A stretch of 60,263 nt of DNA, from the NCBI GenBank assembly GCA_012523575.1, contig JAAYIF010000008.1:1-60263 (forward strand), written 5' to 3'. Every line of letters begins with the position of its first letter. Position 1 is the first letter of the stretch. Shown here piece by piece: positions 36,229-59,373 of this stretch. Under the pieces are notes generated by a model that was not told the DNA's origin, did not search any database, and worked only from the letters and a program-made list of their open reading frames with translations. The position numbers and the translations under genes are program-made. Source of the stretch: Clostridia bacterium (GTDB lineage: Bacteria > Bacillota > DTU086).

Positions 36229-36241
36229 CGGCCCTCACCCC

Positions 36242-39406: not shown

Positions 39407-39424
39407 TAAAATTACCCCCTAAAA

Positions 39425-40279
39425 TTATCCAAAAAAGCGCAGAATTCTGGAAGCAAACCTCTCCTTTGCCAGATCGGTGTGCACTTTACCCATCATTAAA
39501 TTTTTAGCCACGTTCTTTATCTGATAGGATGCCCTCGCCCTGGGATACTGCAGCACAAAGGGCATCTGCTTCTTTACCGCCTTTCCCACACACTCATCAT
39601 CCAGCACATATCCCAGAACATTTATTTCTTTTTTTAGAAAATGCTTTGCAGCGGCGGTAATTCTTTCCGCCGTCTGCCTGGCCTCGGAAAAGCTGGTAGC
39701 CATATTAACCAGCAGGTGAATGCGCTCGTTCAAATTAAACTTCCACAAAACTTTGATTAAAGCGTAAGCATCCGCTATGGAAGTGGGTTCAGGGGTAACC
39801 ACCACGATAACTTCGCTGGCGGCACTGACAAAGGCCAGAACATTTCGGGAAATCCCCGCCCCCGTATCTATGAACAGAAAATCCTGCTTGCCCGTAAAAT
39901 TTCCAATACCTTCCTCAATAGCCTTTTTTTTCAATTTACTCAAAAACATCATTTCATCATAGCCCGAACCCCCGGGAATAAAATTTACCCCCGCAGGTCC
40001 CTTTATGGTGATTTCTTCAATCTTTTTTCTCCCGTTTAGCACGTCATACAGCGAATGCTTGGGGATAATTCCTAAAAGCACATCCACATTGGCCGTTCCC
40101 AAATCCGCATCCAGAAGGGCAACCTTTCTACCGGAAGAAGCAAGACAAATGGCGAGGTTCACTACCAGATTGGTTTTCCCCACCCCCCCTTTACCGCTGG
40201 TAACGGCTATAACCCTGGTGGGAGCTTTTAAATTCCTTCTATTTAATGCCCGTTCCCTTAGTTTAGCAGCCTGATCCAT
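39425..40279 (-). CDS. flhG: MinD-like ATPase FlhG (YlxH)
   Basis: ParA/MinD-family ATPase that with FlhF sets flagellar number and position. Deviant Walker A AVTSGKGGVGKTNLVVNLA near residue 27, Walker B region DLGTANVDVLLGI, and FIDTGAGISRNVLAF. An N-terminal DQAAKLRERAL segment contains the short DQAxxLR activator motif that stimulates the FlhF GTPase. Overlaps flhF by 17 bases. 284 residues, normal. Confidence 0.93.
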   Translation of the reverse strand: MDQAAKLRERALNRRNLKAPTRVIAVTSGKGGVGKTNLVVNLAICLASSGRKVALLDADLGTANVDVLLGIIPKHSLYDVLNGRKKIEEITIKGPAGVNFIPGGSGYDEMMFLSKLKKKAIEEGIGNFTGKQDFLFIDTGAGISRNVLAFVSAASEVIVVVTPEPTSIADAYALIKVLWKFNLNERIHLLVNMATSFSEARQTAERITAAAKHFLKKEINVLGYVLDDECVGKAVKKQMPFVLQYPRARASYQIKNVAKNLMMGKVHTDLAKERFASRILRFFG

Positions 40280-43402: not shown

Positions 43403-43463
43403 ATTTTAATCCCTCACTCTATGCCAGTTTTTCAAGTCAAATCATTTTTGTATATTTTGGACC

Positions 43464-44561: not shown

Positions 44562-45343
44562 TGCCCCATACTCCTCATAATCTGTAGTAAATCCCTTTCA
44601 ATCTGCCCCACAAGGCCGGTAACCACCGCTGTGAACAAAGGAAGAATTATAATAAGCACAATAACTCCCAATCCCGCCTTTAAAGGAAACCCCATTATAA
44701 AAACATTAATCTGGGGTACAGTCCTGCTTATGAGACTGAGGCACAGGTCCGAAATCACCATAATGGCAATCAGAGGCGCCGCAATCTTAAACCCCAAAAG
44801 AAACATCTCTTTAAAAAAGACTATGATATCCACGGAAATCCTTTTGCCCAGCATCGCCGCCCCAAGGGGCAGTATTTCAAAACTCCTTGAGAGGGCCAAC
44901 AGCAGGCTGTGGTGCCCATCCACGGCCAGAAAGAGAAGAATACCCAGGGTATACAAAAAACGGCCCATCAAAGTAACGTTGGAACCCGTCTGGGGATCAA
45001 AGATCCCAGCCATGGAAAAGCCCATGTGGAGGTCCACCAGCTCCCCCGCCACAGTTATGGCTGAAAAGACAAGGTTAGCGGTAAAACCTATGATCATCCC
45101 CACAAGGGTTTCCTTTAAAGCAAGGAGCATAAATTGCCATTGATTCCCCATGAGGTTTTCCAACCCGGTATAATCCACAGTGGGAAAAATCAGCAGTGTC
45201 ATAATAACCCCAAGGCCAATCTTGGCGTAAGCGGGAATGGCCATAGTACTGAAAAACAAAGAAACGGCCAAAAAGGACGTTATGCGTATTAGAACTAGCA
45301 CTGCCGCAAAGAAATCCACCCAATCCAAAAATTTCGCCCCCAA
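44558..45343 (-). CDS. fliR: Flagellar export gate protein FliR
   Basis: Integral membrane component of the export gate, 261 residues with five to six hydrophobic segments; GMIIGFTANLVFSAITVAGE and GFSMAGIFDPQTGSNVTLMG are the recognisable FliR blocks. Sits between fliQ (18 bases before it) and flhB, which it overlaps. Confidence 0.94.
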   Translation of the reverse strand: MGAKFLDWVDFFAAVLVLIRITSFLAVSLFFSTMAIPAYAKIGLGVIMTLLIFPTVDYTGLENLMGNQWQFMLLALKETLVGMIIGFTANLVFSAITVAGELVDLHMGFSMAGIFDPQTGSNVTLMGRFLYTLGILLFLAVDGHHSLLLALSRSFEILPLGAAMLGKRISVDIIVFFKEMFLLGFKIAAPLIAIMVISDLCLSLISRTVPQINVFIMGFPLKAGLGVIVLIIILPLFTAVVTGLVGQIERDLLQIMRSMGQ

Positions 45344-45361
45344 ACTCAGGCTCTAATTTAT

Positions 45362-45631
45362 CTATCTAATAATCTCAGGAAGACTGCCAAACAGGTTTTG
45401 TGTAAACTGAACAATGGCATTGAGCATAAAGGAGCCGAAGAGAAAAATAGCCAGGAATACGGCAATAATCCTTGGGACAAAGGTCAGGGTCTGCTCCTGT
45501 ATCTGCGTCGTTGCCTGTAGTATGCTCTCGGCCACTCCCACCAAAAGCCCAAAAAGCAGGGGAGGCCCCGCAAGCATTAGGGCCACAAGAAGGGCTTCCC
45601 TTGCAAGATAAATTATAAAATCCTGAGTCAA
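45362..45631 (-). CDS. fliQ: Flagellar export gate protein FliQ
   Basis: 89 residues with two membrane helices (ALLVALMLAGPPLLFGLLVG and IIAVFLAIFLFGSFMLN) joined by the conserved loop ESILQATTQIQEQTLTFVP. Part of the FliPQR core pore. 14 bases after fliP. Confidence 0.95.
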   Translation of the reverse strand: MTQDFIIYLAREALLVALMLAGPPLLFGLLVGVAESILQATTQIQEQTLTFVPRIIAVFLAIFLFGSFMLNAIVQFTQNLFGSLPEIIR

Positions 45632-45645
45632 TCCTTATCCCCCCG

Positions 45646-46419
45646 TCAAAAGCTCTCCAAAAGGGACTTAACCACAAGGTGCCATCCATCCACCAGTACA
45701 AAAAGCAGTATCTTAAAGGGTAGAGAAATCATAATTGGAGGAACCATGAACATCCCCATGGACATAAGGGTGCTGGCCACCACAATATCTATGATCAAAA
45801 AGGGAATAAAAATTAAAAACCCCATCTCAAAGGCCGTTTTCAGCTCACTTATTATAAACGAAGGTATTAGCACCCTCATGGGAATATCGTCCCTGCTTTC
45901 AGGCCTGTCCATCCCCGACATCCTAACGAAAAGGGCCAAGTCCTTTTCCCGAGTATGCTTAAACATAAAATTCCTTAAAGGCTCGGCCCCGGCTTCAAAG
46001 GCCTGCTCCTGGGTAATGGCCCCTTCCAGATACGGATCCACTGCCTCGCTTTTAATGTCCTGAAAAACAGGAGCCATGGTGAAGAAAGTTAAAAACAAAG
46101 CCAAGCCTATGAGTACCTGATTAGGAGGTATCTGCTGAATAGCAAGGGCCTGCCTAACAAAAGACAGCACCACAACTATCCGGGTAAAGGAAGTGAGCAT
46201 TACCAAAAATGCCGGCACCAAGGACAGCACGGTGAGTAAAATTAAAATTTTCAGCGCCCCCACCACGTCCTGGGGGCTGTCCGACTGTCCTATTTCCAAA
46301 CTAATATCCGGAATGGGAATGGGCTGGCCATTTGCCGGAACGGCAAAGAACAGAACCATTAATACTGCTAGTACAACAGATGCAAACAAAGCCTGCCGCC
46401 GCAAGGGCTTATTGTGCAT
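45646..46419 (-). CDS. fliP: Flagellar export gate protein FliP
   Basis: 257 residues with an N-terminal signal peptide (QALFASVVLAVLMVLFFAVP, cut after ANG) and four membrane helices. Family blocks: LTVLSLVPAFLVMLTSFTRI, LSFVRQALAIQQIPPNQVLI and FLIIDIVVASTLMSMGM. Forms the core of the export pore with FliQ and FliR. Confidence 0.95.
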   Translation of the reverse strand: MHNKPLRRQALFASVVLAVLMVLFFAVPANGQPIPIPDISLEIGQSDSPQDVVGALKILILLTVLSLVPAFLVMLTSFTRIVVVLSFVRQALAIQQIPPNQVLIGLALFLTFFTMAPVFQDIKSEAVDPYLEGAITQEQAFEAGAEPLRNFMFKHTREKDLALFVRMSGMDRPESRDDIPMRVLIPSFIISELKTAFEMGFLIFIPFLIIDIVVASTLMSMGMFMVPPIMISLPFKILLFVLVDGWHLVVKSLLESF

Positions 46420-46422
46420 GTC

Positions 46423-46788
46423 TCATTCCTCTCCCCTGGATCGAAAATCGTTAATTCTCTGCTTAACAGAAGAAAGCAGGCTCTCCATGCTGGAATACTT
46501 AACCTGCCCCTCCCCCAGCGATATTTCTGGATAGCTGTCCAGCTCTTTTAACAAAGTTGTGCTGCCCTCATTCTGGGCAATGAGATAGTACTTACCTGCT
46601 ACCCTGACCACCAGCAGGCTGCTTTTGGGACCCACCGGCAGCCTGTCCACCACACTCATGGCATATCCCTGGCCCATGGGATTCACAATTCTTCCCAAGC
46701 CGTACCGAATAAATATGTAAATAAAAAATAATACTATGGGAAGAAGGATGAAAATTCTGAGCAGTGCAAAAATCAGATTCCACTCCAT
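46423..46788 (-). CDS. fliO: Flagellar biosynthetic protein FliO/FliZ
   Basis: Short membrane protein that stabilises FliP during gate assembly. One N-terminal membrane segment (LIFALLRIFILLPIVLFFIY), then a small cytoplasmic domain with the conserved VDRLPVGPKSSLLVVRVAGK and YYLIAQNEGSTTLL. I start it at the ATG at 46788, one base past the fliN stop region; the longer frame overlaps fliN with no better site. About 121 residues. Confidence 0.85.
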   Translation of the reverse strand: MEWNLIFALLRIFILLPIVLFFIYIFIRYGLGRIVNPMGQGYAMSVVDRLPVGPKSSLLVVRVAGKYYLIAQNEGSTTLLKELDSYPEISLGEGQVKYSSMESLLSSVKQRINDFRSRGEE

Positions 46789-46789
46789 C

Positions 46790-47173
46790 CTAATTCTCAA
46801 ACCCCTCGACAAAGGAGCTTATCCTAATACCGAAAGATTCGTTTATTAGCACCACTTCCGCCAAGGTAAAGAGCCTATCGTTAAGGTAAACATCCACCTC
46901 TTCACCGGCAGCTTTGTTCAGTTCAATAACGGAATCTACGTCCAGCTCCAGCACTTCTCCCACCGTAAGCTGACACTGCCCCAGCTCCACTTTAACTTCC
47001 ACCAAAACATCACCCAAAAAGCCTATTTCAAGGGGCTTTTTAGCGCCCTTTGCCTTTTTGGGATCTAAAACGGGGAACTTAACCCTTTTGACCTTTTTCC
47101 TGCCCTCTTCTTCCTCCAGCAGATCCCCAATCATTGACCTTATTTTCTCCTCCGTAATAGAACCAATGTCCAT
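46790..47173 (-). CDS. fliN: FliN-type motor switch protein (SpoA domain)
   Basis: 127 residues. A charged N-terminal half (SITEEKIRSMIGDLLEEEEG and a lysine-rich stretch) precedes a complete SpoA domain: FLGDVLVEVKVELGQCQLTV, ELDVDSVIELNKAAGEEVD and FGIRISSFVEGFE. It is a second FliN-domain protein besides FliY at the other end of the operon. Placed between fliL and fliO, where Bacillus has fliY instead. Confidence 0.88.
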   Translation of the reverse strand: MDIGSITEEKIRSMIGDLLEEEEGRKKVKRVKFPVLDPKKAKGAKKPLEIGFLGDVLVEVKVELGQCQLTVGEVLELDVDSVIELNKAAGEEVDVYLNDRLFTLAEVVLINESFGIRISSFVEGFEN

Positions 47174-47191
47174 GGATAAACTTCCCCCGCT

Positions 47192-47671
47192 TTATTGAAT
47201 TATAAAGTTTTCAAAATAGAGGGCTTTTATCTGATTGGGAGGCGATAAAATGCTGTTTACAGCTTCAAAAAGTTCCATCCTAACCCTCTCAAATTTTTCG
47301 TTAGATTCAAAATCGCTGGCCTTTTTCTGATTAAGAACGGTAATTATCTTATCCCTAATCTTATATTTCTTTTGCTCAATTTCCTTAACGGTATCAACAT
47401 CGTAACATTCAACGGTAATATCCGCCCTAAGGTAACGCCTGAATCCCATATCAGCCAAATTCACCGTAAAGGTATCCAGGGTTACACTCTTAACCTTCGC
47501 CTCATCGACGGCGGAAGCAACGGAATTAACTTTACCTCCCCCTCCGGAGAAATAGTAACCTACGGCGGCACTGCCGCCTATGCTTAAAAGTACAACCAGA
47601 GCAACCAACAACCACCTTTTTATTCTTCCGCCCCGCTTTTCCTGCTTGTTTTCCTGCTGCTGTTCTGCCAT
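47192..47671 (-). CDS. fliL: Flagellar basal body-associated protein FliL
   Basis: Stator-associated single-pass membrane protein. Basic N terminus (RGGRIKRW), one membrane segment (LLVALVVLLSIGGSAAVGYY), and a periplasmic SPFH-like domain with FTVNLADMGFRRYLRADITV and the C-terminal LSPPNQIKALYFENFIIQ. ATG at 47671 preferred. Directly after motB, consistent with its role around the stator ring. Confidence 0.92.
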   Translation of the reverse strand: MAEQQQENKQEKRGGRIKRWLLVALVVLLSIGGSAAVGYYFSGGGGKVNSVASAVDEAKVKSVTLDTFTVNLADMGFRRYLRADITVECYDVDTVKEIEQKKYKIRDKIITVLNQKKASDFESNEKFERVRMELFEAVNSILSPPNQIKALYFENFIIQ

Positions 47672-47709
47672 AATGCCCTTAATCACCCCTTAACCATTTA
47701 TATTTCCCC

Positions 47710-48435
47710 TTACTCATTTATATTTTGAGTTGTAATAACCAAGACCACCCTTCGGTTCTGGGCTTGATTCTCAGGTGAAGTATTGGGCAGCACCGGCTGG
47801 TACTCGCCAAAACCCACGGCCACAAATTTCTGCGGGTCAAGCCCCCTTTCCTCCGTTAAATACCTCACCACCCTCACTGCCCTATCCACGGAAAGTTCCC
47901 AGTTTGTAGGATAATTGGCTGTTTTTATGGGACGGTTGTCCGTATGCCCTTCCACCGAAATCTGATTTGGTAGTCTTTCAAAAAGACCGCTCAAGCGATC
48001 CAGAAGAAGCCGCGCTTCCGGTTTTAAATCAGCCTTCGCGGAATCAAAAAGAATCCTTTCCTTTATATCCAGTGCTATCCCTCTCTCACGGTACCCCACT
48101 TCCACCTGGTCCGAAAGCCCATGCTCCCTAAGATAGCTTACGGTCATATCGTAAATTTCCTTGAGATTGCTTTGGGCACCTTCCCCCAGCGCCGGATCAT
48201 CCTCAAAGGCTTCACTTCTTGTGCTTTCGGGCATCACCTGTTCCAGCGGCGCCCTTCCCCCGTCCAAAATACCTGATCCTTGAAAGGACAGGATAAACTG
48301 CTGGAACTTGCTGACGTCTACTTGGGAAAAGGAATAAAGGAGCACAAAAAACACAAGAACCAAAGTCACAAGGTCCGAATAAGTCAGAAGCCAATCGTTG
48401 GTGGGAATGTTCTTTCTTATCCTACGACGCCGCAT
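47710..48435 (-). CDS. motB: Flagellar stator protein MotB
   Basis: Peptidoglycan-anchored stator subunit. Basic start, one membrane helix carrying the ion-binding aspartate D21 (LTYSDLVTLVLVFFVLLYSF), a plug/linker, and an OmpA-like domain with SVEGHTDNRPIKT and NRRVVLVI. 241 residues. Overlaps motA by 14 bases. Proton versus sodium coupling cannot be read with confidence. Confidence 0.95.
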   Translation of the reverse strand: MRRRRIRKNIPTNDWLLTYSDLVTLVLVFFVLLYSFSQVDVSKFQQFILSFQGSGILDGGRAPLEQVMPESTRSEAFEDDPALGEGAQSNLKEIYDMTVSYLREHGLSDQVEVGYRERGIALDIKERILFDSAKADLKPEARLLLDRLSGLFERLPNQISVEGHTDNRPIKTANYPTNWELSVDRAVRVVRYLTEERGLDPQKFVAVGFGEYQPVLPNTSPENQAQNRRVVLVITTQNINE

Positions 48436-49234
48436 GTAAGTGCACCTCTTCTTCCTTTTCCTTATTGTTCATTCTCTCCTGATCTTTTGGGGGTATATAG
48501 GCTTTAAGCTTTTCCTCCAGAATACGCGGGTTTAACCCCGACTGAATGGCAATAATCCCCTCAAGAATTATGGTCTTTAAACGCATTTCCTCATCACTGC
48601 GCAGGGCAAGCTTTCCCGCAATAGGGGTCATTATGAGGTTGGCAAGAACTGCTCCGTAGAATGTGGTAAGCAGCGCCACAGACATTCCCGGCCCTAGCTT
48701 GCTGGGATCATTTAAATGGGCCAGCATCTGAATAAGACCGATAAGGGTCCCAATCATACCGAAAGCTGGGGCCAGCGCAGCCCAGCTCCTAAAAATGCTC
48801 TGCCCATGTTCGTGACGCTCCGCCATACTGTCTATCTCCGTTTCCAGTATATCCCTTATGGTGTCCGGATCGATGGCATCAACGATGAGCTGGAGCCCTT
48901 TGGAAAAAAGGGGATCGTTTATGGCATCCATATCATCTTCCAGCGCCAGAAGCCCCTCTTTCCGCGCTTTTTTTGCCAGCTCAGCCAGAGTACTGATAAT
49001 CTCCTCTGCCGGGGTAAGTTCCGTGGAAAAGGCCTGCCTCGCAACGGATAATACGCCTTTAACCTGTTGAAAATCGTACTGGATTACAACGGCAAAAAAG
49101 GACCCTCCAACGGTAATGAAAACCGAGGGCAGATTCCAAAAAAGACCCAAATCACTGCCCAGTAACATACCAAACAAAACAACGACAAACCCAAGAAAAA
49201 GTCCAAAAATGGTCATTAAATCAAATTTTTTCAA
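48422..49234 (-). CDS. motA: Flagellar stator protein MotA
   Basis: Four-helix stator subunit, 270 residues. GLFLGFVVVLFGMLLGSDLG and VTVGGSFFAVV-like first helices, a cytoplasmic loop with torque-interface charges (SMAERHEHGQSIFR), and the proline-bearing helices FGMIGTLIGLIQMLAHL and VALLTTFYGAVLANLIMTPI. Placed between flbD and motB. Confidence 0.95.
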   Translation of the reverse strand: MKKFDLMTIFGLFLGFVVVLFGMLLGSDLGLFWNLPSVFITVGGSFFAVVIQYDFQQVKGVLSVARQAFSTELTPAEEIISTLAELAKKARKEGLLALEDDMDAINDPLFSKGLQLIVDAIDPDTIRDILETEIDSMAERHEHGQSIFRSWAALAPAFGMIGTLIGLIQMLAHLNDPSKLGPGMSVALLTTFYGAVLANLIMTPIAGKLALRSDEEMRLKTIILEGIIAIQSGLNPRILEEKLKAYIPPKDQERMNNKEKEEEVHLHAAS

Positions 49235-49254
49235 GAATACTCACCTCAATTTAT

Positions 49255-49449
49255 TCAGGATACCGGCGGCTGATTGACGAGCCGCCGGTATTCCAGCACC
49301 AGCTGCTTTATTTCTTCCTGAGTTTCCTTAACCAGCATTTTCCTTCCCGTGGTAAGGGTAATAAGGGTTTCCGGAACACTTTCAACCATTTCTATAAGCT
49401 CGGCATTGACGGTGACCCTTCTCCCATTTAAGGTGGTAATGTCAATCAT
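49255..49449 (-). CDS. flbD: Flagellar protein FlbD
   Basis: Small protein of 64 residues from the FlbD family (PF06289): MIDITTLNGRRVTVNAELIE followed by PETLITLTTGRKMLVKE. Found after the hook gene in many Gram-positive and spirochaete flagellar operons; role unknown, possibly linked to motor assembly. The ATG at 49449 is the family start; the preceding open codons lack similarity. Confidence 0.85.
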   Translation of the reverse strand: MIDITTLNGRRVTVNAELIEMVESVPETLITLTTGRKMLVKETQEEIKQLVLEYRRLVNQPPVS

Positions 49450-49485
49450 TGAGCCCCGCCCCCACACAGCAATTTAAACACGAGG

Positions 49486-50307
49486 TTAACGCTTGAGATT
49501 AACCAGCTCCTGAAGCATTTCGTCGGCTGTAGTGATGGTCCTGGCGTTGGCCTGATACCCCCTCTGGGTGATGATCATATCCGTAAACTCCTTTGCCAGA
49601 TCCACATTGGACATCTCCAGGGAACCGGGAACAAGGGTACCGCGACCACCTGTTCCTGGAGCAGAGATTAGATTATCCTCATCTTCAGTGTCTGCATTGA
49701 TATCAAACTGATACAAATTCTCTCCCACTTTGATCAGCCCTTCGTTGTTGGCAAATTTGGCAAGGCCTATTTGGCCTGCAGTTTGTTGGGCCCCACTGGA
49801 ATCAATATAAGTCACCGTACCGTCACTGCTGATTTTGAAGCTCTGTACATTTGAAAAATCATCAATTTTTATTTGTTTTCCACTGCTATCCAGCACAAAC
49901 ATCCCGTTGCTTTTATTAATCAAATTTCCCTCTGCATCAAACCCAAAAACTCCTGCCCTGGTATAATATTTAATGGTCCCATCTACGTCAGGAGACAAAA
50001 TAAAGAACCCTTCACCTTGAATCATCACATCAGTGGGAAAATTAGTAGGTTCCACGTTCCCCTGGGTAAAGTTGGTATCAATGCTGTTAACAGCCATGCC
50101 CACCCCAACCTGTCTGGGATTAATACCCCCTTGATTTTCAGAAGGAGCAGTTCCACCGCTTAAAGTTTGATAGAACACGTCCTGAAAGGTTACCCTGCTG
50201 CTTTTAAAAGCAACGGTATTAACATTGGCAATGTTGTTGCCGATAACGTCCATGCGGGTCTGGTGATTTCTAAGGGCTGATACCGCCGCAAACATGGAAC
50301 GCATCAT
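49486..50307 (-). CDS. flgE: Flagellar hook protein FlgE (short form)
   Basis: Axial hook protein: N-terminal MRSMFAAVSALRNHQTRMD and VIGNNIANVNTVAFKSSRV, central domain with GNVEPTNFPTDVMIQGEGFF, and C-terminal MSNVDLAKEFTDMIITQRGY. 273 residues, at the short end, similar to the Bacillus hook protein and lacking the variable outer domains of enteric FlgE. It follows fliK-flgD-flg_new, the hook module. It has an unusual GC-rich leader with a predicted anti-Shine-Dalgarno. Confidence 0.9.
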   Translation of the reverse strand: MMRSMFAAVSALRNHQTRMDVIGNNIANVNTVAFKSSRVTFQDVFYQTLSGGTAPSENQGGINPRQVGVGMAVNSIDTNFTQGNVEPTNFPTDVMIQGEGFFILSPDVDGTIKYYTRAGVFGFDAEGNLINKSNGMFVLDSSGKQIKIDDFSNVQSFKISSDGTVTYIDSSGAQQTAGQIGLAKFANNEGLIKVGENLYQFDINADTEDEDNLISAPGTGGRGTLVPGSLEMSNVDLAKEFTDMIITQRGYQANARTITTADEMLQELVNLKR

Positions 50308-50315
50308 TTTTAAAC

Positions 50316-50388
50316 GACCTCCTCTCTTTTTTTAAATCAGTGCGCCGCTTCGGTCGTTCCGCGGCGCGGGGCTTCCTCCAAGGAGGTC
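50316..50388 (-). promoter_or_regulatory. Structured flgE leader with potential anti-Shine-Dalgarno
   Basis: On the minus strand the flgE ribosome site AGGAGGTC (50323-50316) is perfectly complementary to GACCTCCT (50388-50381) in the leader. Between them a seven-base hairpin GCGCCGC / GCGGCGC and an alternative GGGGC...GCCCC hairpin that would hold GACCTCC are visible. No T run follows, so this is not a terminator. Confidence 0.4.
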
Positions 50389-50396
50389 CGGCCCCT

Positions 50397-50816
50397 TTAA
50401 ATTATCACCACACTGTCAATATTGGTGAACACATTCTCCTTCATTTGCTTTTCCTCAACCACGGTAATCACCGTATTGTTTTTCACGCTCACCACAAAGG
50501 CCGCCCCTTCCATGAGCACCAGGGTTTCCCTGGCTGCCTTTGAGCGGGCCTTGGATACCGCTTCTTCCAGACGCCTAATACTCTCGGGGGTTAAATCAAT
50601 GCTCTCTGCGCTGAGGCGTTCTTGGGCATGTTTGGAAAATTTCAAACCGGTACCTTTACTGATTTCATTGCTGAGAATTTCCTCAAAGAAAGGGCCCCCT
50701 GCATTCTTCGCCTTTTTGTTCTTCTGGGCACTTTTTCCTGTTTTGGCCGGGGAAACGGGATAAACCCTTTCTGTCCCAAACCGCACGTCAAAACCGCCCA
50801 TCATTATCACCACCAT
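50397..50816 (-). CDS. Flagellar operon protein of the TIGR02530 (flg_new) family
   Basis: About 135-139 residues; lysine-rich N-terminal half, then the family block LKFSKHAQERLSAESIDLTP, RRLEEAVSKARSKAARETLV and VSVKNNTVITVVEEKQMKEN. Found between flgD and flgE in many Gram-positive operons, probably a hook-assembly factor; function not established. Starts next to the flgD stop; a second ATG at 50804 has the better GGTGGTG site. Confidence 0.8.
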   Translation of the reverse strand: MVVIMMGGFDVRFGTERVYPVSPAKTGKSAQKNKKAKNAGGPFFEEILSNEISKGTGLKFSKHAQERLSAESIDLTPESIRRLEEAVSKARSKAARETLVLMEGAAFVVSVKNNTVITVVEEKQMKENVFTNIDSVVII

Positions 50817-51263
50817 TTATTCTGCATGCACTTCCACAACATTTCCAAAGGGTATTTCCTCTCCGTTCACAATGAGCACGGGCAGAGAATTAAAGTTCTT
50901 AACCGCTTCCACGATGCCCTCAATTTCGGAACCGTCCACCAAAGCCTTTATGCGTTTGCCCATCATGTTCAATGCCTGCAGGCCCAGAGCATATTGTCCG
51001 TCCATGCCCTTTTCCAAACTGCTTTTCAGTCCCCGAATCTCTTCCTTTATCCCCGTTATCTGCTCCAGAATACTGAACTGGGTAAGCTGGGCTATGAATT
51101 CCCTATCCTCCATGGGCTCCAGGGGATTCTGATATTTCAGCTGGGCAACGAGGATTTTCAAAAAATCATCCTTCCCCATAATCCCCTGGCTTTCTACCGA
51201 ACCCGCAGATCTGTCAGATGTTACCTGATTCAAGTAGGAAGATGTGATACCGCTTACACCCAT
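50817..51263 (-). CDS. flgD: Flagellar hook cap protein FlgD
   Basis: Hook scaffolding cap, 148 residues. The N-terminal block QGIMGKDDFLKILVAQLKYQ, NPLEPMEDREFIAQLTQFS and EQITGIKEEIRGL are characteristic. The C-terminal tudor/fibronectin-like domains of enteric FlgD are absent, which is the short Gram-positive form. Ends one base before the flg_new gene. Confidence 0.92.
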   Translation of the reverse strand: MGVSGITSSYLNQVTSDRSAGSVESQGIMGKDDFLKILVAQLKYQNPLEPMEDREFIAQLTQFSILEQITGIKEEIRGLKSSLEKGMDGQYALGLQALNMMGKRIKALVDGSEIEGIVEAVKNFNSLPVLIVNGEEIPFGNVVEVHAE

Positions 51264-51290
51264 GACCCCACCTCCTTTTATTATTTAAGA

Positions 51291-52652
51291 TTATGCAAGG
51301 TAGCTGATGGTACCCCCTATATGGGAAACTTCATGCTGAAACTCTTCTACCGCTGAGGTTTCGGGATCATAAGCCAAACCTTCTCTCTTATTAGATCCTC
51401 CCTTTCCAAAATCCTCCCCTGCATATTCGTAAGAACTCCACTGTTCAAAACTCCCTACATCCACCTCCGTCTGCTGCCAGGAAATGCCCTGACTTTCCAG
51501 GGACTGCTTCAGCTGGGAAAGATTGTCCCTGATATACTGCCTTACATGGGAATTTTCCGCTAAAATCCTTGCATGGAAGACGTTATTCTCCAGGGTAAGC
51601 TTTACCAAAAGCCTTCCCAAATACTCAGGCTTAAGCTGTAGGGTTACCTCCGACTTACCCTCCAAAGCAGTAAACCTGCTTTTCTGCACCATCTGTTCCT
51701 TAAGGATCATGGAAAGCCTCTCAATGAATCCTCCCCGGGGGACATTTTTGGGGCTTTCCGCCGCAGCCGCTGAATCCTTCACAATTATCAAACCCTTCAA
51801 TACTTCCCCGGACACCTCCGGTGAGGCCTTTTCACCGGCTGCCGTGCCCTTTACGGTATCACCTGGATTAACTGTCTTTCCCGAGGAAAGTTCCTCGTGG
51901 GGTTTCAATCCCCTGGCAAAGGTTTCAGCATCCTTATGGGCTGTTTCGGAGTACGTCTTCACGCCGCCTTCCGGTAAAGTCCCTTCTCCTAACTTTAAAA
52001 CGGGCTTTTCCCCTCCGGCTTTAAGCTCCGGCTTATTAAAAGGCAGTACGCCTTCTCCTCTTTCCAAAAGGGCTTCTAAAAAATCCCTGGGGCTTTCCGG
52101 AACACCCTTATCAGCAACCATGAGGAAAGGTTCCGCCTCGAGAACCTCACCTGTTTCGGATGCGTATACTCTGGGCAAAACAGCTGCTGCAGTTGCATCC
52201 TCTCCCGAAGAAGCTTCCAACGGAATACTCATCAAAGCTCCCGAAAGCTCACCGGAAACAGGAGGCCCATTCCCGGTAAGGAAAAAAGCCTCTTCAGCTT
52301 CTGGTGGCAGCCCTCCCTGGAACATCAGCCCCAAGACTGCGGAAAATCCGGCAGCGCCCTCTGTTTCTGCTCCCTTTTCCGCATTTTCTCCCTGTCCTGT
52401 GCTTTTAAGCTCCCCTTTTAATTCCGCCTTCCCTATATCCTTTTTTGTCGCAGCACCTTCAGCTTCTAATGCTATTTCCCCTTCAGGCCCATTTCTTTCA
52501 TCCATTCTGCTTACGGCCTTTTCAAGCTCCCTTTTAAAAGCCACTGCACCGTCCCCGGAGGAATTCTTTACGGATAATTTTACCGGATTCATCCCTGGCT
52601 TTTCCAAAAGCTGCATTATCGGAAACGCCGGCAATCCACTCACCTTTCTCAC
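51291..52652 (-). CDS. fliK: Flagellar hook-length control protein FliK
   Basis: Molecular ruler secreted during hook growth. A long low-complexity, Glu/Ala/Gly-rich N-terminal region (about 320 residues) and a conserved C-terminal domain with VTLQLKPEYLGRLLVKLTLE, LAENSHVRQYIRDNLSQLK and the LESQGI end. 453 residues. Identity from the C-terminal domain and position before flgD. The plus strand carries a long open frame across it, which is a GC-skew shadow. Confidence 0.88.
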   Translation of the reverse strand: MRKVSGLPAFPIMQLLEKPGMNPVKLSVKNSSGDGAVAFKRELEKAVSRMDERNGPEGEIALEAEGAATKKDIGKAELKGELKSTGQGENAEKGAETEGAAGFSAVLGLMFQGGLPPEAEEAFFLTGNGPPVSGELSGALMSIPLEASSGEDATAAAVLPRVYASETGEVLEAEPFLMVADKGVPESPRDFLEALLERGEGVLPFNKPELKAGGEKPVLKLGEGTLPEGGVKTYSETAHKDAETFARGLKPHEELSSGKTVNPGDTVKGTAAGEKASPEVSGEVLKGLIIVKDSAAAAESPKNVPRGGFIERLSMILKEQMVQKSRFTALEGKSEVTLQLKPEYLGRLLVKLTLENNVFHARILAENSHVRQYIRDNLSQLKQSLESQGISWQQTEVDVGSFEQWSSYEYAGEDFGKGGSNKREGLAYDPETSAVEEFQHEVSHIGGTISYLA

Positions 52653-52686
52653 CTCCTTCCCTGGATTTTAAGCTTTTATATGCTAC

Positions 52687-53121
52687 TTAACTCCCCCTTG
52701 CATAGGCGGAGGTAGCAAACTCATCCAGCCCTTTCTGTATTTCCCTTGAAACTTCATATTTGTATTGGGCAATTTTCTTCTCCTTAAGCTTTTCCAGTAC
52801 CATGGATCTGCGCCTAGCCTCAATATATTTTTTCTGAAGCTCCATCAGCTGGGAACGGGATTGCTCTACAACCTTTGCCTGCCCCTTAACGAGCTCCTCT
52901 AGAAAAAGGGATCTCTCATTCCAATGGGCAAGTTTCCAGGCCTCCATCCTTCCTTCCCCAAGGCTGTCTTTGAACTCATCATATTTTGCCCTAAGAAAAT
53001 CCAACTCCTCCACCAGGGCCCGGTGCTCCTCCCGCTTATCCATAAGCTCCGTCTTAATCTGTTCTTCCACCTGCTTCCTGTACGCCAGAACCTTTTCCAG
53101 GGAAAACTTAAACTTCTTCAT
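52687..53121 (-). CDS. fliJ: Flagellar export chaperone FliJ
   Basis: 144-residue alpha-helical coiled coil: FKFSLEKVLAYRKQVEEQIK at the N terminus is the family start, with heptad repeats throughout. It stimulates the FliI ATPase and recycles chaperones. 22 bases after fliI. Confidence 0.88.
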   Translation of the reverse strand: MKKFKFSLEKVLAYRKQVEEQIKTELMDKREEHRALVEELDFLRAKYDEFKDSLGEGRMEAWKLAHWNERSLFLEELVKGQAKVVEQSRSQLMELQKKYIEARRRSMVLEKLKEKKIAQYKYEVSREIQKGLDEFATSAYARGS

Positions 53122-53143
53122 ACCCTTCCAAGCCTCCTATACT

Positions 53144-54469
53144 CTATCCCTGCTGTCCCTCTAAAATCTCCTTTAATTCCTGCAAAGATTCCTCCAGCCT
53201 GCAGTGCTCCTCAATTCCCTGTTTTAGAAATTCAACCAGCCTCGGATGCAGCTCCACAGCCCTGTCGATTTTGGGATTGGAACCCTTTTTGTACGCGCCT
53301 ATGCTGACGAGATCCCTCGTTTCCTCAAAGGCCGCCATATATTCCTTGGCCTGATGCGCCAGCTTCTGGTGCTCCTCACTTGTTATTTCGGGCATCAAAC
53401 GGCTGATGCTCTGGAGCACGTCCACCGCAGGATAAATGTTCTGGGAGGCAAGCTGCCTGGACAGCACAATGTGCCCGTCCAGAATTCCCCGTACACTGTC
53501 GGCTATGGGTTCGTTCATATCATCAGCTTCCACCAGCACCGTGTACAGGCCCGTTATGGAACCTCTACTGGAATTACCCGCCCTTTCCAGAAGCTTGGGC
53601 AGCATGGCAAACACCGATGGAGTGTACCCCCTGGTGGTGGGAGGCTCCCCTACTGCAAGGCCCACTTCCCTCTGGGCCGCGGCAAAGCGGGTAACGGAAT
53701 CCATCATGAGCATTACATCTTTTCCCTGATCCCTGAAATATTCCGCTATGGCAGTGGCCACAAAAGCACCCTTTATACGCACCAAAGGAGGCTGATCCGA
53801 AGGAGCAGCCACCACCACAGACCTCTTAAGCCCCTCTTCTCCCAGATCCCTTTCAATGAAATCCTTTATTTCTCTGCCCCGCTCCCCTATGAGAGCCACC
53901 ACATTGACGTCCGCTCTGCAGTATCGGGCTATCATCCCCAGAAGCGTACTTTTTCCCACACCGCTTCCGGCAAAAATACCTATCCTCTGGCCACGCCCGC
54001 AGGTGGTGAAGAGATCTATAACCTTGATCCCCGTTTCCAAAACATGGGTTATGCGCTCCCTCTCAAGGGGGTTCGGGGGATCATTGGCCACACTGTAGAA
54101 GCTCTGTCCTAAGGGCACTCCCCCGCCGTTCATGGGCCTTCCCAGGCCGTCCAGCACCTTACCCAAAAGATCCTTTCCTATGTATATACTGTGGCTCTTG
54201 CCCGTGGGGAACACTTTGCTTCCCTGGGAAATGCCCTTCAAATCCCCCAGGGGCATCAAAAGAGTCCTGTCATCCTTAAACCCCATAACTTCCGCAGCTA
54301 TTCTATCCTTCCCGCCATTGGCTTCAAGGAAGCACAGTTCCCCTATGGAAGCCGAAACCCCTGCGGCTTCAATGGTAAGTCCCACAACCCTTAAAACCCT
54401 GCCTATGGATTTTAAAGTATTAATCTTGTCCAAAGCCCTCCCGTAGGGCGCCAAATCAATCCTGTTCAT
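53144..54469 (-). CDS. fliI: Flagellum-specific ATPase FliI
   Basis: F1-beta-like ATPase at the export gate. Walker A GIFAGSGVGKSTLLGMIA near residue 165, Walker B DVMLMMDSVTRFA, catalytic glutamate in ALIGERGREI, GEPPTTRGYTPSVFAMLPKL, and a C-terminal helical domain. 441 residues. Overlaps fliH by 14 bases; FliH regulates its activity. Confidence 0.96.
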   Translation of the reverse strand: MNRIDLAPYGRALDKINTLKSIGRVLRVVGLTIEAAGVSASIGELCFLEANGGKDRIAAEVMGFKDDRTLLMPLGDLKGISQGSKVFPTGKSHSIYIGKDLLGKVLDGLGRPMNGGGVPLGQSFYSVANDPPNPLERERITHVLETGIKVIDLFTTCGRGQRIGIFAGSGVGKSTLLGMIARYCRADVNVVALIGERGREIKDFIERDLGEEGLKRSVVVAAPSDQPPLVRIKGAFVATAIAEYFRDQGKDVMLMMDSVTRFAAAQREVGLAVGEPPTTRGYTPSVFAMLPKLLERAGNSSRGSITGLYTVLVEADDMNEPIADSVRGILDGHIVLSRQLASQNIYPAVDVLQSISRLMPEITSEEHQKLAHQAKEYMAAFEETRDLVSIGAYKKGSNPKIDRAVELHPRLVEFLKQGIEEHCRLEESLQELKEILEGQQG

Positions 54470-55250
54470 ACTCTTGCTGCCTCTTTATTACCTCTTCTGA
54501 AAGGAACTTCCTTATCTCATCCAGCTGACTCTCAAGGGTAGCATCCAAAAGACCCATTTCCGTTTCCACCTTGCAGCCTCCTATGCCCACGCTCTCATCC
54601 TCCAGGATGTGAATGTGGGCATTGGCACTGGCATGTCTGCTGAGCTCATCTATGTACTGATGCAGGAGCTCTGCATCTTTGGGGTTAACAATTATACTGT
54701 AGTGTTTTGCGGAAGCAAGTCTCTCCAGAGCATCCCTCACCATTCTCACCACTGTTTCCCTGTGTTCCTCCGCATGGGCATGGACCACCTTGGACGCAAT
54801 TGCAAGGCACAGGTCCACCACTTCCCCTTCAGCCGAAATTATAAGTTCCTTTCTCCGGTCTTCCGCTTCCTTCAAAACCTTAAAGGCTTTGCTCCTTATC
54901 CTGTCCGCCTCTTCCCTGGCTTCCTCCATCGCCTTTTCAAAACCCTTACGGTATCCCTCGCCGTAACCCCTTTCCTCCGCTTCCTTAAAAATCTCCTTTT
55001 CCTGTTCCCTGGCCATTTCAATAATTTGGGAAGCCTCCTCCTGGGCTTTTTTAATCAGTTCCTCTGCTTCCTTTCTTGCTCTGCTTAAAATCTCTTCTCT
55101 TTCCCTTTCAGCTGCTAAACTTTCCTTTGATAACTGCTCCAAAGATTGGCTCTCCCCGAGAAGGTCTTCCTCATCATTCTCCGCAGGCTCCAAATTAAGG
55201 TCCAGGTGGTAAACCTCGTCCACTTCTACGGAGCGCAGAACCCTAGACAA
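54456..55250 (-). CDS. fliH: Flagellar assembly protein FliH
   Basis: Peripheral stalk-like regulator of FliI. Long acidic/basic coiled coil (EEILSRARKEAEELIKKAQE and GYGEGYRKGFEKAMEEA) with a C-terminal domain similar to V-ATPase E subunit (VRMVRDALERLASAKHYSII; VGIGGCKVETEMGLLDATL). TTG start overlapping the fliG stop by eight bases. 264 residues. Confidence 0.9.
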   Translation of the reverse strand: MSRVLRSVEVDEVYHLDLNLEPAENDEEDLLGESQSLEQLSKESLAAEREREEILSRARKEAEELIKKAQEEASQIIEMAREQEKEIFKEAEERGYGEGYRKGFEKAMEEAREEADRIRSKAFKVLKEAEDRRKELIISAEGEVVDLCLAIASKVVHAHAEEHRETVVRMVRDALERLASAKHYSIIVNPKDAELLHQYIDELSRHASANAHIHILEDESVGIGGCKVETEMGLLDATLESQLDEIRKFLSEEVIKRQQEYEQD

Positions 55251-56253
55251 TTACTTCATCCTCCCCACCGCGGGAAATAATAATCTCGCCTGCTTCATCA
55301 AGGCGCCTGATGATCTGAACAATGCTCTGCTGGGCCTCTTCAACTTCACGGAGTCGCACAGGCCCCAAAAATTCCATCTCTTCCTGGAGCATTTCCCCGG
55401 CTCTCTTGGACATATTTCTCAAGATCCTGTTAAGCAGCTCATCGCTGGCTCCCTTAAGGGCTTTGGCAAGATCCTTCATATCAATCTCACGGAGCACACG
55501 GCGGATGGCCATATCGTCAAGAATATTGATATCCTCAAAGACGAAGAGCCTGTTGCGGATTTCATCCGCCAGCTCGGGATCATCTTGCTCCAAGGTTTCT
55601 ATAATGGTCCTTTCCGTACCGCGGTCCACTTTGTTCAAAATATCCACCACTGTCTGGATGCCGCCGGCAAAGGTGAACCTTTCTCCCACAAAGGTGGAAA
55701 GCTTCCTCTCCAGCACAGCTTCCACCTCTTTGATTATTTCCGGTGACGTGGTTTCCATATTGGCTATGCGCTTTGCTATCTCCGCCTGGGTTTCCTGGGG
55801 CAGCTCACTTAACACCAGAGCCGCCTGTTCAGGATCCAGATAGGACAATATTAATGCAATGGTCTGGGGATGCTCGTTCCCAATGAAGTTCACCAGATGC
55901 TTGGGATCCGTCTTCCTCAGGCCAGAAAAAGGGTATCTTTTGGTTGCCGCCGTGAGCTTGCGTATATATTCATTAGCCTTGGCAGGGCCCAAGGACTTTT
56001 CCAGCACCTGCTTTGCATACTCCACTCCGCCCTTTACAAGATAGTACTGGACCTCATGGAGTTCCAAAAATTCCTTCAGCACTGCCTGCTGGGTCTCGGC
56101 ATCCACCACATCTATATTTGCAATTTCATAGGTTATTTTTTCAATATCCTCTTCCGAAAGCTGCTTCATAACCTTGGCCGAAAGCTCAGGTCCTATGCTT
56201 ATAAGCAGGATCGCCGCTTTCTGCCTCCCGGTAAGCTTTTTGTGCTTTGTCAA
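55243..56253 (-). CDS. fliG: Flagellar motor switch protein FliG
   Basis: C-ring protein that contacts the stator. LTGRQKAAILLISIGPELSA at the start, the middle-domain EHPQTIALILSYLDPEQAAL (EHPQ motif), and the C-terminal torque helix with DMAIRRVLREIDMKDLAKAL and MLQEEMEFLGPVRLREVEEA. 336 residues. Overlaps fliF by four bases. Confidence 0.96.
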   Translation of the reverse strand: MTKHKKLTGRQKAAILLISIGPELSAKVMKQLSEEDIEKITYEIANIDVVDAETQQAVLKEFLELHEVQYYLVKGGVEYAKQVLEKSLGPAKANEYIRKLTAATKRYPFSGLRKTDPKHLVNFIGNEHPQTIALILSYLDPEQAALVLSELPQETQAEIAKRIANMETTSPEIIKEVEAVLERKLSTFVGERFTFAGGIQTVVDILNKVDRGTERTIIETLEQDDPELADEIRNRLFVFEDINILDDMAIRRVLREIDMKDLAKALKGASDELLNRILRNMSKRAGEMLQEEMEFLGPVRLREVEEAQQSIVQIIRRLDEAGEIIISRGGEDEVIV

Positions 56254-57833
56254 CTGGTTTCACCCCAATCTTCCGACAGCCATGCTCTTATCAGCTTTGC
56301 AGCTTCGTCGGGGGCTTTGCTGGCTATTTCCTTAGCGCTTTCATATCTTCTCTTATGCTGCAGCTCTTCTTCGGTGGGAATTCGCACTTCCGGTTCCTTT
56401 TCCTCTTCCTCTTCCACAGCTGCAGCTTCACTTACGGGCATTGGATAAAGTTCCTCAAATTCTTCCCTAGCACGGCGTCTGTATATAATAAATGCAGCAA
56501 TTCCCGAGATAAGCACCACTAAAGCCGCGATACCAATCAAGATATAACGTTTCAAGCGCTCCCTTCTCTCCTGCTCCTCCCGGGCCGCTTCCATTTCCCT
56601 TTCCGCTTCCTCGATATGACTCCTGTCAAAGGTGCGGCTCACCACGGAAATCTGATCTCCCCGCTCGGGCTGATATCCAACGGCAGCCTGCACTATTTCC
56701 TCGATCAAAGCTATTTCCTCAGCATCAAGCTCCCCATCCACAGCCACGGATGTGGAAATGTTTTGCACCTGTCCCGGAGCATAGACCACCGTTTCCTGAG
56801 TTTCATCTATTTCATAATTTCTGGTCACATCGGTTTCCGTCTCGCTACTCTGACCTGGTTCCAGCGCCTGATATTCTCCCACATTGGCCGGGGTACCGGG
56901 AACCCCTGCCGCGGCTCCTCCCGAAACGCTGCTCCTCTCCACCAGCTTCTCGCTTCTCACCACACCGTCTTCACCATACTCTATCCTGGTTACCTGCCTC
57001 TGGTCGAAGTTGAGATCCGCGGAAACCATTACCACAGCACGCCCGGGCCCAAGAATCCTTTCTAGGTGCTTCTCAACCCTGTCCTCCAGGTTCTTTTCAA
57101 ACTCCCTTTTCATCTCCAGCTGTCTTCTGCTTAAAGCTCCCCCTATCTTACCTTCTTCGCCCACTTCTATATCTTCACTGAGAATGTTACCCTTGGTATC
57201 GATGATATTGACCTTTTCCGGAGTAAGGTTTTCCACACTTCCCGAAACAAGATAAATAATCCCCTTAATCTGCTCCTCACTGAGCTGGGCAAAGGGTTTT
57301 AAGGCAAGGACCACAGAAGCGGAAGCGGTGCCTTCCTCTTCCACGAACACACTGTCTTCGGGAAGGACAATGTGAACCCTGGCATCCTCCACCTCGTCCA
57401 GATAGTTTATGGTCCTCCTGAGCTCCTCCTGAAGGGCTCTTTGATAGTTCAACCTCCGCTCAAAGTCGGTGGCCCCGAGTTTGCTTTCATCAAAGAGCTC
57501 AAATCCTTTTCCGGTATTGAGAACTCCGGAGCCCGCCAGCTGAAGCCTCGTTTTATACAGCACATCTTCGGGAACAAGGATGGTGTCCCCATCCCCACCA
57601 ACCTTGTACGGAACTTTCATTTCATCCAGCTTCTCCACCACAGCCCCCGCCTCTTCGGGGGACAGATCCGAGAAAAGGGGAGCATACTTCCCGCCGAAAA
57701 TCTTTTGCCCCAGAAAAACCAGCAGAATTATAACTGCTGCGGCACCCCCAATGATAACAGCCTTCCGCGCAGTTGATAGGGAGCTCCATTTTTCTGCTAA
57801 ATTTTTTATCAGCTGATTGAAGTTCAATGTCAT
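56250..57833 (-). CDS. fliF: Flagellar MS-ring protein FliF
   Basis: Forms the membrane ring that templates assembly. Membrane segments near residues 25-45 and 440-460, ring-building motifs FSDLSPEEAGAVVEKLDEM, YQRALQEELRRTINYLDEVE and VHIVLPEDSVF, and a C-terminal FliG-binding tail (EVRIPTEEELQHKRRYESAK; LIRAWLSEDWGE). 527 residues. 35 bases after fliE. Confidence 0.96.
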   Translation of the reverse strand: MTLNFNQLIKNLAEKWSSLSTARKAVIIGGAAAVIILLVFLGQKIFGGKYAPLFSDLSPEEAGAVVEKLDEMKVPYKVGGDGDTILVPEDVLYKTRLQLAGSGVLNTGKGFELFDESKLGATDFERRLNYQRALQEELRRTINYLDEVEDARVHIVLPEDSVFVEEEGTASASVVLALKPFAQLSEEQIKGIIYLVSGSVENLTPEKVNIIDTKGNILSEDIEVGEEGKIGGALSRRQLEMKREFEKNLEDRVEKHLERILGPGRAVVMVSADLNFDQRQVTRIEYGEDGVVRSEKLVERSSVSGGAAAGVPGTPANVGEYQALEPGQSSETETDVTRNYEIDETQETVVYAPGQVQNISTSVAVDGELDAEEIALIEEIVQAAVGYQPERGDQISVVSRTFDRSHIEEAEREMEAAREEQERRERLKRYILIGIAALVVLISGIAAFIIYRRRAREEFEELYPMPVSEAAAVEEEEEKEPEVRIPTEEELQHKRRYESAKEIASKAPDEAAKLIRAWLSEDWGETS

Positions 57834-57868
57834 GCACTCCCTGTTACCACAGTTTTATGCTGCGAAAC

Positions 57869-58168
57869 CTAAATCTGCATTCTGGAAATCTCCTGATAAG
57901 CCTCAATTACCTTGTTTCTTATCTGAACCGCCAGCTGAAGGGTCAGGTTTGCCCTTTCCGCAGCAATGACAACCTCGTGGATGCTGTCAATTCCCCCTGC
58001 CAGGTACTGCAGGGTAAGGGCATCAACCTCCTTCTGAAGGCTGTCCACCTTTTTCAACGCTTCATTAAAGACATCAAAAAAATCAACAGATTTTATATCC
58101 TTCTTATCTCTGTTCTTTTCAGAAAGCTCAAAAACCGAAGGATGGGCATTTACCGCAGAAATCTCCAT
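57869..58168 (-). CDS. fliE: Flagellar hook-basal body adapter FliE
   Basis: 99 residues joining the MS ring to the rod. FFDVFNEALKKVDSLQKEVD, LAGGIDSIHEVVIAAERANL and LQLAVQIRNKVIEAYQEISR are the family blocks. Third gene of the operon, 19 bases after flgC. Confidence 0.94.
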   Translation of the reverse strand: MEISAVNAHPSVFELSEKNRDKKDIKSVDFFDVFNEALKKVDSLQKEVDALTLQYLAGGIDSIHEVVIAAERANLTLQLAVQIRNKVIEAYQEISRMQI

Positions 58169-58187
58169 TTAGTAATGCACCTCCCCG

Positions 58188-58604
58188 CTAACGCCCTATC
58201 TCAAGGGCCTTCAAAGCCATGGACTTGGCAGTGTTGAGAACGGTAACATTGGCCTCGTACGCCCTTGACGCCGCAATGAGATCTATCATTTCATTTACAA
58301 TATTTATATTAGGCATTGCGACAAACCCGTTCTCATCGGCATCGGGGTGATCGGGATTGTACACCATCCTTGGGGGAGTAGCGTCCTCAATAATTCTCTC
58401 CACCCTCACCCCATTTCCTCTATATCCGCCTTCCATGGCTTCCTTAAGCCTTTCCCTGAACACCGGCATCTGCCTGCGGTACGGCCCGCCGCCCTCGGTG
58501 CGGGTGGTATTCATATTGGCAATGTTATTGGCTATGAGATCCATCCACAACTTTTGAGCGGTAAGGGCTGATGCGCTAATGGCTATTCCCGGAATGAGCT
58601 TCAT
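58188..58604 (-). CDS. flgC: Proximal rod protein FlgC
   Basis: 138 residues. ISASALTAQKLWMDLIANN and NIANMNTTRTEGGGPYRRQ form the rod N terminus; ATPPRMVYNPDHPDADENGF and MPNINIVNEMIDLIAASRAY the conserved second half. Three bases after flgB. Confidence 0.95.
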   Translation of the reverse strand: MKLIPGIAISASALTAQKLWMDLIANNIANMNTTRTEGGGPYRRQMPVFRERLKEAMEGGYRGNGVRVERIIEDATPPRMVYNPDHPDADENGFVAMPNINIVNEMIDLIAASRAYEANVTVLNTAKSMALKALEIGR

Positions 58605-58607
58605 ACC

Positions 58608-59021
58608 CTATCCCCTCCCCTCAGTGATCACATACCTTAAAAGGGACAGCTTATTATTAAGCTGCTGGGCTGCCAGATTGTAATTGATGGCGTTCATAGC
58701 AAGGACCGCCATTTCCTCTTCAATGCTCACGTTATTCCCATCGGCTCTGTGGGAAGTACTGTTATCCCTTTTTATTTCGTGAGTAATCTCATTCAAGGCC
58801 GGCACAGTTCCCAAATGGGCAGGATGGGTGCGCCTTAGGGGCACCCCTTCCTTTTCTTTCAAGGCCTGCGCCAGGAATTCCTCAAAGACCACATAGGATT
58901 TTTTGTATCCAGGGGTATTAATGTTGGCTATGTTATTTGCTACAACCTCCTGGCGTTGATAAGCAGCATTCAAATACTTTTCCAGCAGATCTATCGCAAC
59001 ATCATTAAAAATAAAGCCCAT
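58608..59021 (-). CDS. flgB: Proximal rod protein FlgB
   Basis: 137 residues, first gene of the main flagellar operon. AYQRQEVVANNIANINTPGY is the rod N-terminal signature; the second half has NVSIEEEMAVLAMNAINYNL. The ATG at 59021 is preceded by GGGGGA. The transcript leader carries the c-di-GMP riboswitch and terminator described separately. Confidence 0.95.
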   Translation of the reverse strand: MGFIFNDVAIDLLEKYLNAAYQRQEVVANNIANINTPGYKKSYVVFEEFLAQALKEKEGVPLRRTHPAHLGTVPALNEITHEIKRDNSTSHRADGNNVSIEEEMAVLAMNAINYNLAAQQLNNKLSLLRYVITEGRG

Positions 59022-59047
59022 GTCATCAATCCCCCAAAAAAATTTAC

Positions 59048-59071
59048 AAAAAACCTATCCCAAAGGATAGG
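59048..59071 (-). terminator. Riboswitch expression-platform terminator before flgB
   Basis: Minus-strand CCTATCC-TTTG-GGATAGG hairpin followed by six T, starting right after the aptamer and about 30 bases before flgB. Confidence 0.85.
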
Positions 59072-59079
59072 CGCCGATA

Positions 59080-59175
59080 ATTATAATCTGTAGCATGGCA
59101 GTCATAGCTCTAAAAAGAGCCTTAGACCCATTGCTTTGCGCGCATTTCCTTTCGGAAAGCTTGCCCAACATGGTA
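59080..59175 (-). ncRNA. c-di-GMP-I (GEMM-I) riboswitch upstream of flgB
   Basis: Minus-strand aptamer with the GEMM-I elements in order: GGGCAA (59166-59161); a P2 hairpin TTTCC-GAAA-GGAAA with GAAA tetraloop (59158-59145); GCGCAAAGC (59141-59133); GGGTCTAAGG (59129-59120); a P3 stem GCTC/GAGC (59119-59107); then CTATGACTGCC (59107-59097). The CTAAG...TATGA pair is the tetraloop receptor that docks the GAAA loop. It ends next to an intrinsic terminator. In Clostridioides difficile a riboswitch of this class ahead of flgB turns the flagellar operon off when c-di-GMP is high; the same off-switch logic is inferred here. Outer boundaries (P1) are approximate. Confidence 0.88.
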
Positions 59176-59282
59176 TATTTATCAAAGAGTAGCACATTAA
59201 GGAAATCCCAATTTTTTTTGCATTATTTCTACACTATAAAAGCAAATCCTGCATTAAATACAAAAATTTTCTTTTTTTCCAC

Positions 59283-59321
59283 AAAAAAAGCAGATTTTAG
59301 GAAAAAAGTTCTATATCTGCT
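59283..59321 (-). terminator. Second terminator after fliS
   Basis: Minus-strand AGCAGAT / ATCTGCT stem with a 19-base loop and seven T. Backs up the first fliS terminator. Confidence 0.6.
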
Positions 59322-59334: not shown

Positions 59335-59373
59335 ATAATAAAAAAACCCAAAAGCTGTCTCGCCTTGGGTTTC
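59335..59373 (-). terminator. First terminator after fliS
   Basis: Minus-strand AAACCCAA / TTGGGTTT stem with an imperfect loop, followed by TTTTATTATTT, 40 bases past the fliS stop. Confidence 0.75.

Follow-up and report, generated by a model that had tools for sequence, protein, structure and literature searches.

Organization of the flagellar locus

The window, by which we mean the whole 60,263-nucleotide stretch of DNA analysed here, carries 37 co-directional genes, most of them flagellar, that begin with flgB and occupy 30856-59021 (28,166 bp, as the original prediction of a 28-kb operon had it; Table 1). The genes were named by family searches, according to which the flgE-type product is a hook/rod protein and the flgF-type and flgG-type products are two rod proteins, and the 251-bp stretch between flgE and motA encodes a 70-residue FlbD. 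The run is compact: its largest gap is 89 bp and the next 61 bp, all others are 39 bp or less, and many genes overlap. Chemotaxis genes had also been placed in it, and cheD, cheR, cheC and cheY are indeed there, but CheW-domain proteins are encoded on another contig, one of them in a 737-residue frame that is probably CheA.

Upstream of flgB, two terminator-like hairpins come after the end of fliS (59415), from which it follows that flgB very probably begins its own transcript between 59283 and 59175. A weak candidate promoter lies in this region in the window; its -10-like block reads TTTAAT in a second genome of the same genus (G001). No SigD-type promoter near consensus was found upstream of the aptamer.

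Table 1. Features of the flgB leader and the downstream operon
Feature	Position	Strand	Basis
Terminator-like hairpin ACCCAA...TTGGGT + T7 after fliS, between fliS and flgB	59340..59370	-	Sequence
Terminator-like hairpin AGCAGAT...ATCTGCT + T7, upstream of leader	59283..59321	-	Sequence; stem and T-run also in G001
Weak candidate promoter TTGTAT - 19 nt - TATAGT	59233..59263	-	Sequence and G001 alignment (putative)
Conserved 5' leader TTTCCTTAATGTGC	59192..59205	-	Conserved in G001
c-di-GMP-I (GEMM-I) aptamer, full length	59086..59175	-	RF01051 match and residue alignments
Intrinsic terminator (expression platform): 8-bp stem, 4-nt loop, T-run	59048..59072	-	Sequence, shuffles, G001
RBS GGGGGA, spacer and flgB start codon (ATG)	59019..59035	-	Sequence; 3' of terminator, separate
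flgB, first gene	58608..59021	-	TIGR01396, 107 bits (cut-off 59)
Run, first part: flgB flgC fliE fliF fliG fliH fliI fliJ fliK flgD (Flagellar_put) flgE-type flbD motA motB	30856..59021 (whole run)	-	
Run, middle (after motB): fliL fliN-type fliO fliP fliQ fliR flhB flhA flhF flhG ycgR sigD	30856..59021 (whole run)	-	
Run, last part (after sigD): (DUF6115) (YceG-like) flgF-type flgG-type cheD cheR cheC cheY fliM fliY	30856..59021 (whole run)	-	
ycgR (PilZNR + PilZ), c-di-GMP-binding-type flagellar brake	38717..39406	-	PF12945, 63.5 bits; PF07238, 57.3 bits
sigD/fliA-type flagellar sigma factor	37962..38717	-	PF04542, PF04545, PF08281 and position
Terminator-like site after fliY, candidate operon end	30675..30690	-	Site scan

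The flgB leader carries a c-di-GMP-I aptamer

When the whole window was scanned with all 4227 Rfam families, c-di-GMP-I (RF01051) was the sole family at its gathering threshold. The match lies on the minus strand at 59175-59086, covers the model in full (positions 1-87) and scores 63 bits against a gathering score of 35 (E 5.5e-10 in the whole window). In the 501-base surroundings the E-value is 4.5e-12, and no other family comes up to its gathering score. The GEMM-I elements listed in the original prediction are all found on the minus strand, in the same place and in order (59190-59022), and the significant model match excludes the alternative that the class has no covariance-model counterpart here. 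Scored with a covariance model of our own, built on 40 aptamers, the sequence reaches 75.6 bits (E 2.1e-15), which serves as a consistency check only, because the window's own aptamer is among the 40. At the level of sequence, the leader RNA is thus confirmed as a c-di-GMP class I riboswitch, a new instance of an already known switch type.

The key residues in ligand recognition, G20, A47, A48 and C92 (PMC3764141), have their equivalents kept in the alignment at 59165, 59137, 59136 and 59090, respectively, and the GAAA tetraloop of P2 is present (CCGAAAGG, 59155-59148). Other positions vary. The A18 equivalent (59167), an A in 36 of the 40 aligned aptamers, is U, and the C93 position is A; P1 closure is therefore irregular and affinity for c-di-GMP could be low. 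In P2, the window's aptamer has G25 (59160), C42 (59142) and an inserted U (59144). A18, A25 and G42 are commonly conserved, non-essential positions that do not define the class, and their replacement by U, G and C leaves the full RF01051 match unaffected. The sister aptamer of G001 is identical except in the apical arm of P3 and at one base beside C92.

A variant P2 loop found before flgB

The P2 variant replaces the near-invariant A25/G42 by a G-C combination with an extra U. The change at the two positions is coordinated, being G-C in the window, in G001 and in G016, and G-U in G035. A pattern search detected the altered loop in 13 of 399 sampled genomes of the phylum, one copy each, and the reversed control pattern had zero matches in the same 399 genomes. 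A looser pattern added two genomes from the class of G016. In all 15 genomes the motif occurs once, only before flgB, with a FlgB-like reading frame about 145 to 275 bases downstream; the genome of the window has seven further c-di-GMP-I riboswitches, all of the ordinary form. The sub-form looks new. Its members fall into only three families (f1, f14 and f33), most of them in one genus, and so represent few independent lineages.

These irregularities raise the question of whether the aptamer has decayed or shifted its ligand, leaving it deaf to c-di-GMP and the terminator as a constitutive attenuator. In favour of this are the U in place of the near-invariant A18, the A in place of C93, the change in the P2 loop and the score of 63 bits, which ranks seventh among the eight c-di-GMP-I riboswitches of its own genome. 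Against this, the equivalents of G20, A47, A48 and C92 are intact, and the sister aptamer differs at so few places. The P2 change is also shared with genomes of two other families and is thus conserved rather than the product of random decay. We consider a deaf aptamer highly improbable.

Terminator and direction of the switch

The intrinsic terminator, predicted to follow directly on the aptamer, is borne out at 59072-59048. It begins 13 nt past the aptamer end and consists of GCCTATCC-TTTG-GGATAGGT followed by T5-T6 (about -10.9 kcal/mol); among 500 dinucleotide-shuffled versions of the spacer between aptamer and flgB, 3 produce an equally stable hairpin with T5. The same terminator is present in G001, where the leader is also conserved. 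The leader as a whole (59190-59040) folds with -45.6 kcal/mol (z -2.75), and its minimum-energy fold holds the aptamer and the terminator together, without overlap.

We regard it as highly probable that this riboswitch switches the flgB operon off at the level of transcription. The RNA would start in the ~110 bp that separate the terminator-like hairpins after fliS from the aptamer. While c-di-GMP is low, folding of the leader would keep the terminator hairpin from forming in time, giving read-through into flgB. At high c-di-GMP, the ligand would bridge the G20 and C92 positions and lock the aptamer fold; the downstream terminator would then be free to form, and transcription would end before flgB. 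Because the operon includes sigD and ycgR, the switch would extend to the flagellar sigma factor and to the PilZ brake. Ligand binding and the resulting termination are what we infer from these elements, and OFF is the better reading of direction because aptamer and terminator form together in the minimum-energy fold. Some argument against a working switch comes from Bc1 of Bacillus thuringiensis, a c-di-GMP-I riboswitch that binds its ligand but is unresponsive in vivo (PMC11218506).

The usual logic of c-di-GMP is motile-to-sessile, and a ligand that turned flagella on would be contrary to it. Still, either direction is possible for GEMM-I aptamers: in Cd1 of Clostridioides difficile, an antiterminator competes with aptamer and terminator, which can form side by side, whereas in the pilM ON switch aptamer and terminator are mutually exclusive (PMC9262584). 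An ON switch, with a real aptamer whose ligand blocks the terminator and so turns on the flagellar genes, would gain from a partial-transcript fold that extends P1 by GUGCU:GGCGC and reaches two bases into the terminator stem. However, the 7-bp core of the terminator is untouched by the extended P1, the terminator makes no use of the aptamer 3' strand, in contrast to the account of the pilM ON switch given in PMC9262584, and in the best fold the two elements coexist. An ON switch is accordingly quite improbable, and we retain the OFF switch in what follows.

A candidate antiterminator

An OFF switch of this kind could employ an antiterminator. Constrained folding yields a candidate in which aptamer segments AAGCUU/UCC/AAAGGA/GCGC (59162-59140) pair with the terminator (59074-59051), the P2 hairpin pairing with the entire terminator hairpin, and in which the leader segment CUUAAUGUG (59201-59193) also pairs with CAUGUUGGG of the aptamer (59172-59164). 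In ensemble energy, the best fold lacking the terminator comes out 2.5-4 kcal/mol less stable (2.5; 4.0 with a longer leader). When aptamers were swapped among 17 leaders, 4 of 15 were as good as or better than the window's native pair, and the native pair of the sister genome ranked last. Over all 17 leaders, native pairs rank somewhat above chance (p = 0.02 in a one-sided KS test, in which the two sister leaders are not independent). Across five lineages of the P2 sub-form, native duplexes between the aptamer 5' half and the terminator are not favoured (20-36 of 120 permutations), because GGGCAAG is conserved in all. Swaps and permutations thus fail to separate a native-specific antiterminator of the window from chance; antiterminator pairing in this leader is hypothetical and comes from the modelled folds.

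It is possible, short of probable, that the P2 variant marks a c-di-GMP-I sub-form dedicated to flgB, with A25/G42 changed to G-C (or G-U) plus an extra U, present in at least three families as a single copy per genome, exclusively before flgB, and with antiterminators drawn from the aptamer 5' half (the P1 strand, GGGCAAG and P2) and not from the 3' strand as in Cd1. The part concerning P2 and flgB rests on the 15 of 15 genomes, and the 5'-half antiterminators are hypothetical. If real, an flgB-only sub-form would be an RNA regulator inherited along with its operon.

Reach of the switch within the operon

According to the original prediction, few or no promoters or terminators are evident inside the run. 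Internal promoter-like and terminator-like sites are no commoner than in shuffles, a result that is compatible with this claim and falls short of proving it; we infer that all 28 kb form one transcript. Long flagellar operons often have extra promoters, and the two scanned halves contain 31 and 17 sigma-70-like sites on both strands, from which internal promoters could free much of the run from a working riboswitch. Such promoters would be compatible with the OFF switch in everything except its reach. However, the site counts equal the shuffle expectation, no close SigD-type site occurs on the coding strand within the 37-gene run, and apart from the gaps of 89 and 61 bp the run offers only overlaps and gaps of at most 39 bp. 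Extensive escape through internal promoters is therefore rather unlikely.

Distribution of the arrangement

A c-di-GMP-I riboswitch before flgB is widespread in this phylum. Among FlgC loci of other genomes in the phylum (L039-L067, 28 loci once a near-duplicate had been removed), 15 have it; one of these, L057, is a weak match (E 1e-4). When the whole collection was scanned, with each species represented by one genome, the arrangement occurred at 6 of the 80 best loci, at some of them in tandem, including those of Carboxydocella thermautotrophica and of a MAG named Symbiobacterium thermophilum. A script located a terminator close after the aptamer in 15 of 20 other flgB-linked leaders, and another was read by eye in L042. 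The same architecture thus precedes flgB in many genomes of the phylum and in C. difficile, and the interpretation first offered for the window, as to class, position, terminator and downstream operon, is supported.

Several of these leaders have elaborate forms. Tandem c-di-GMP-I aptamers precede flgB in L098, L133 (the MAG named Symbiobacterium thermophilum) and L063. Three c-di-GMP-I-like elements precede flgB in a Peptococcaceae MAG (L103). In the two strong ones (1256-1331 and 1387-1462) G20 is replaced by A, the substitution associated with c-GAMP binding, and the P3 apical hairpin is seemingly missing. The flgB-linked riboswitch of L065 (2450-2636) has an insertion of ~100 nt in the P3 arm.

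The riboswitch set of the genome

Besides its eight c-di-GMP-I riboswitches, the genome (1.64 Mb, 94% complete) encodes seven GGDEF domains that score above cut-off and a single EAL domain. Judged by their sequences, the first frames after three of the riboswitches (L003, L005 and L008, the last a fragment) encode methyl-accepting chemotaxis proteins; others encode a transglutaminase-like exported protein (L001/L002), a camelysin-family protein (L006) and a HATPase-domain protein (L004). The set looks like a motile-sessile regulon of which flgB is one target. L001 and L002 are a tandem pair (G000:C46:40439 and 40662), and after the first aptamer comes a strong terminator with a loop, GGTTGCCC, similar to the aptamer 3' end. 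L005 and L008 are very similar to each other and lie on one 3.5-kb contig (G000:C47, 2010-2092 and 3228-3310), one before a methyl-accepting chemotaxis protein and the other before a fragment of one, reflecting either a local duplication or an assembly artefact.

Since ycgR lies in a riboswitch-preceded operon, a single locus may give c-di-GMP two levels of action on motility, through the riboswitch and through a PilZ protein. Via the seven further riboswitches, the same second messenger would also act on chemotaxis receptors and exported proteins.

Comparison with known systems

Two known relatives of the aptamer differ from it. The c-di-GMP-I-GGC variant (RF03167) belongs to the same Rfam clan, and one flgB-linked relative (L043) scores best against it, whereas the window's best match is RF01051. 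The pilM c-GAMP riboswitch of Geobacter has a homologous aptamer and a transcriptional platform, but it is an ON switch with mutually exclusive aptamer and terminator (PMC9262584), whereas the terminator in the window is separate. G20A is the change for c-GAMP binding (reviewed in PMC7288161); it is absent from the window, which keeps G20.

The closest parallel is Cd1 (Cdi1_3) of C. difficile (PMC3649979, PMC9262584, PMC11477304), which was not among the genome-scan matches and is compared here by its published features. There, a prematurely terminated RNA of ~160 nt is made, flgB falls three-fold on overexpression of a diguanylate cyclase (PMC3649979), and the switch is reviewed as OFF over a 29-gene operon that includes sigD (PMC11477304). 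No inverted repeats of 12 bp or more were found around the window's leader, and an invertible flagellar switch of the C. difficile type was rejected on this ground. The two systems share the aptamer family, the place before flgB, a terminator between aptamer and flgB, sigD in the operon, and an aptamer and terminator able to coexist. They differ in that the window has a short leader, with 65 nt from aptamer end to flgB, whereas in C. difficile the promoter reportedly lies 496 bp upstream of flgB; in the P2 internal-loop variant; in the antiterminator, which in Cd1 is reported with the aptamer 3' strand and whose best candidate here involves the 5' half; and in the number of operon genes, 37 versus 29. 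Because the C. difficile flgB switch is already documented (PMC3649979, PMC11477304), the finding is the same kind of switch in another lineage, and it would extend the rule that c-di-GMP shuts the flagellar operon via RNA to a small-genome lineage of the same phylum with few sequenced relatives.
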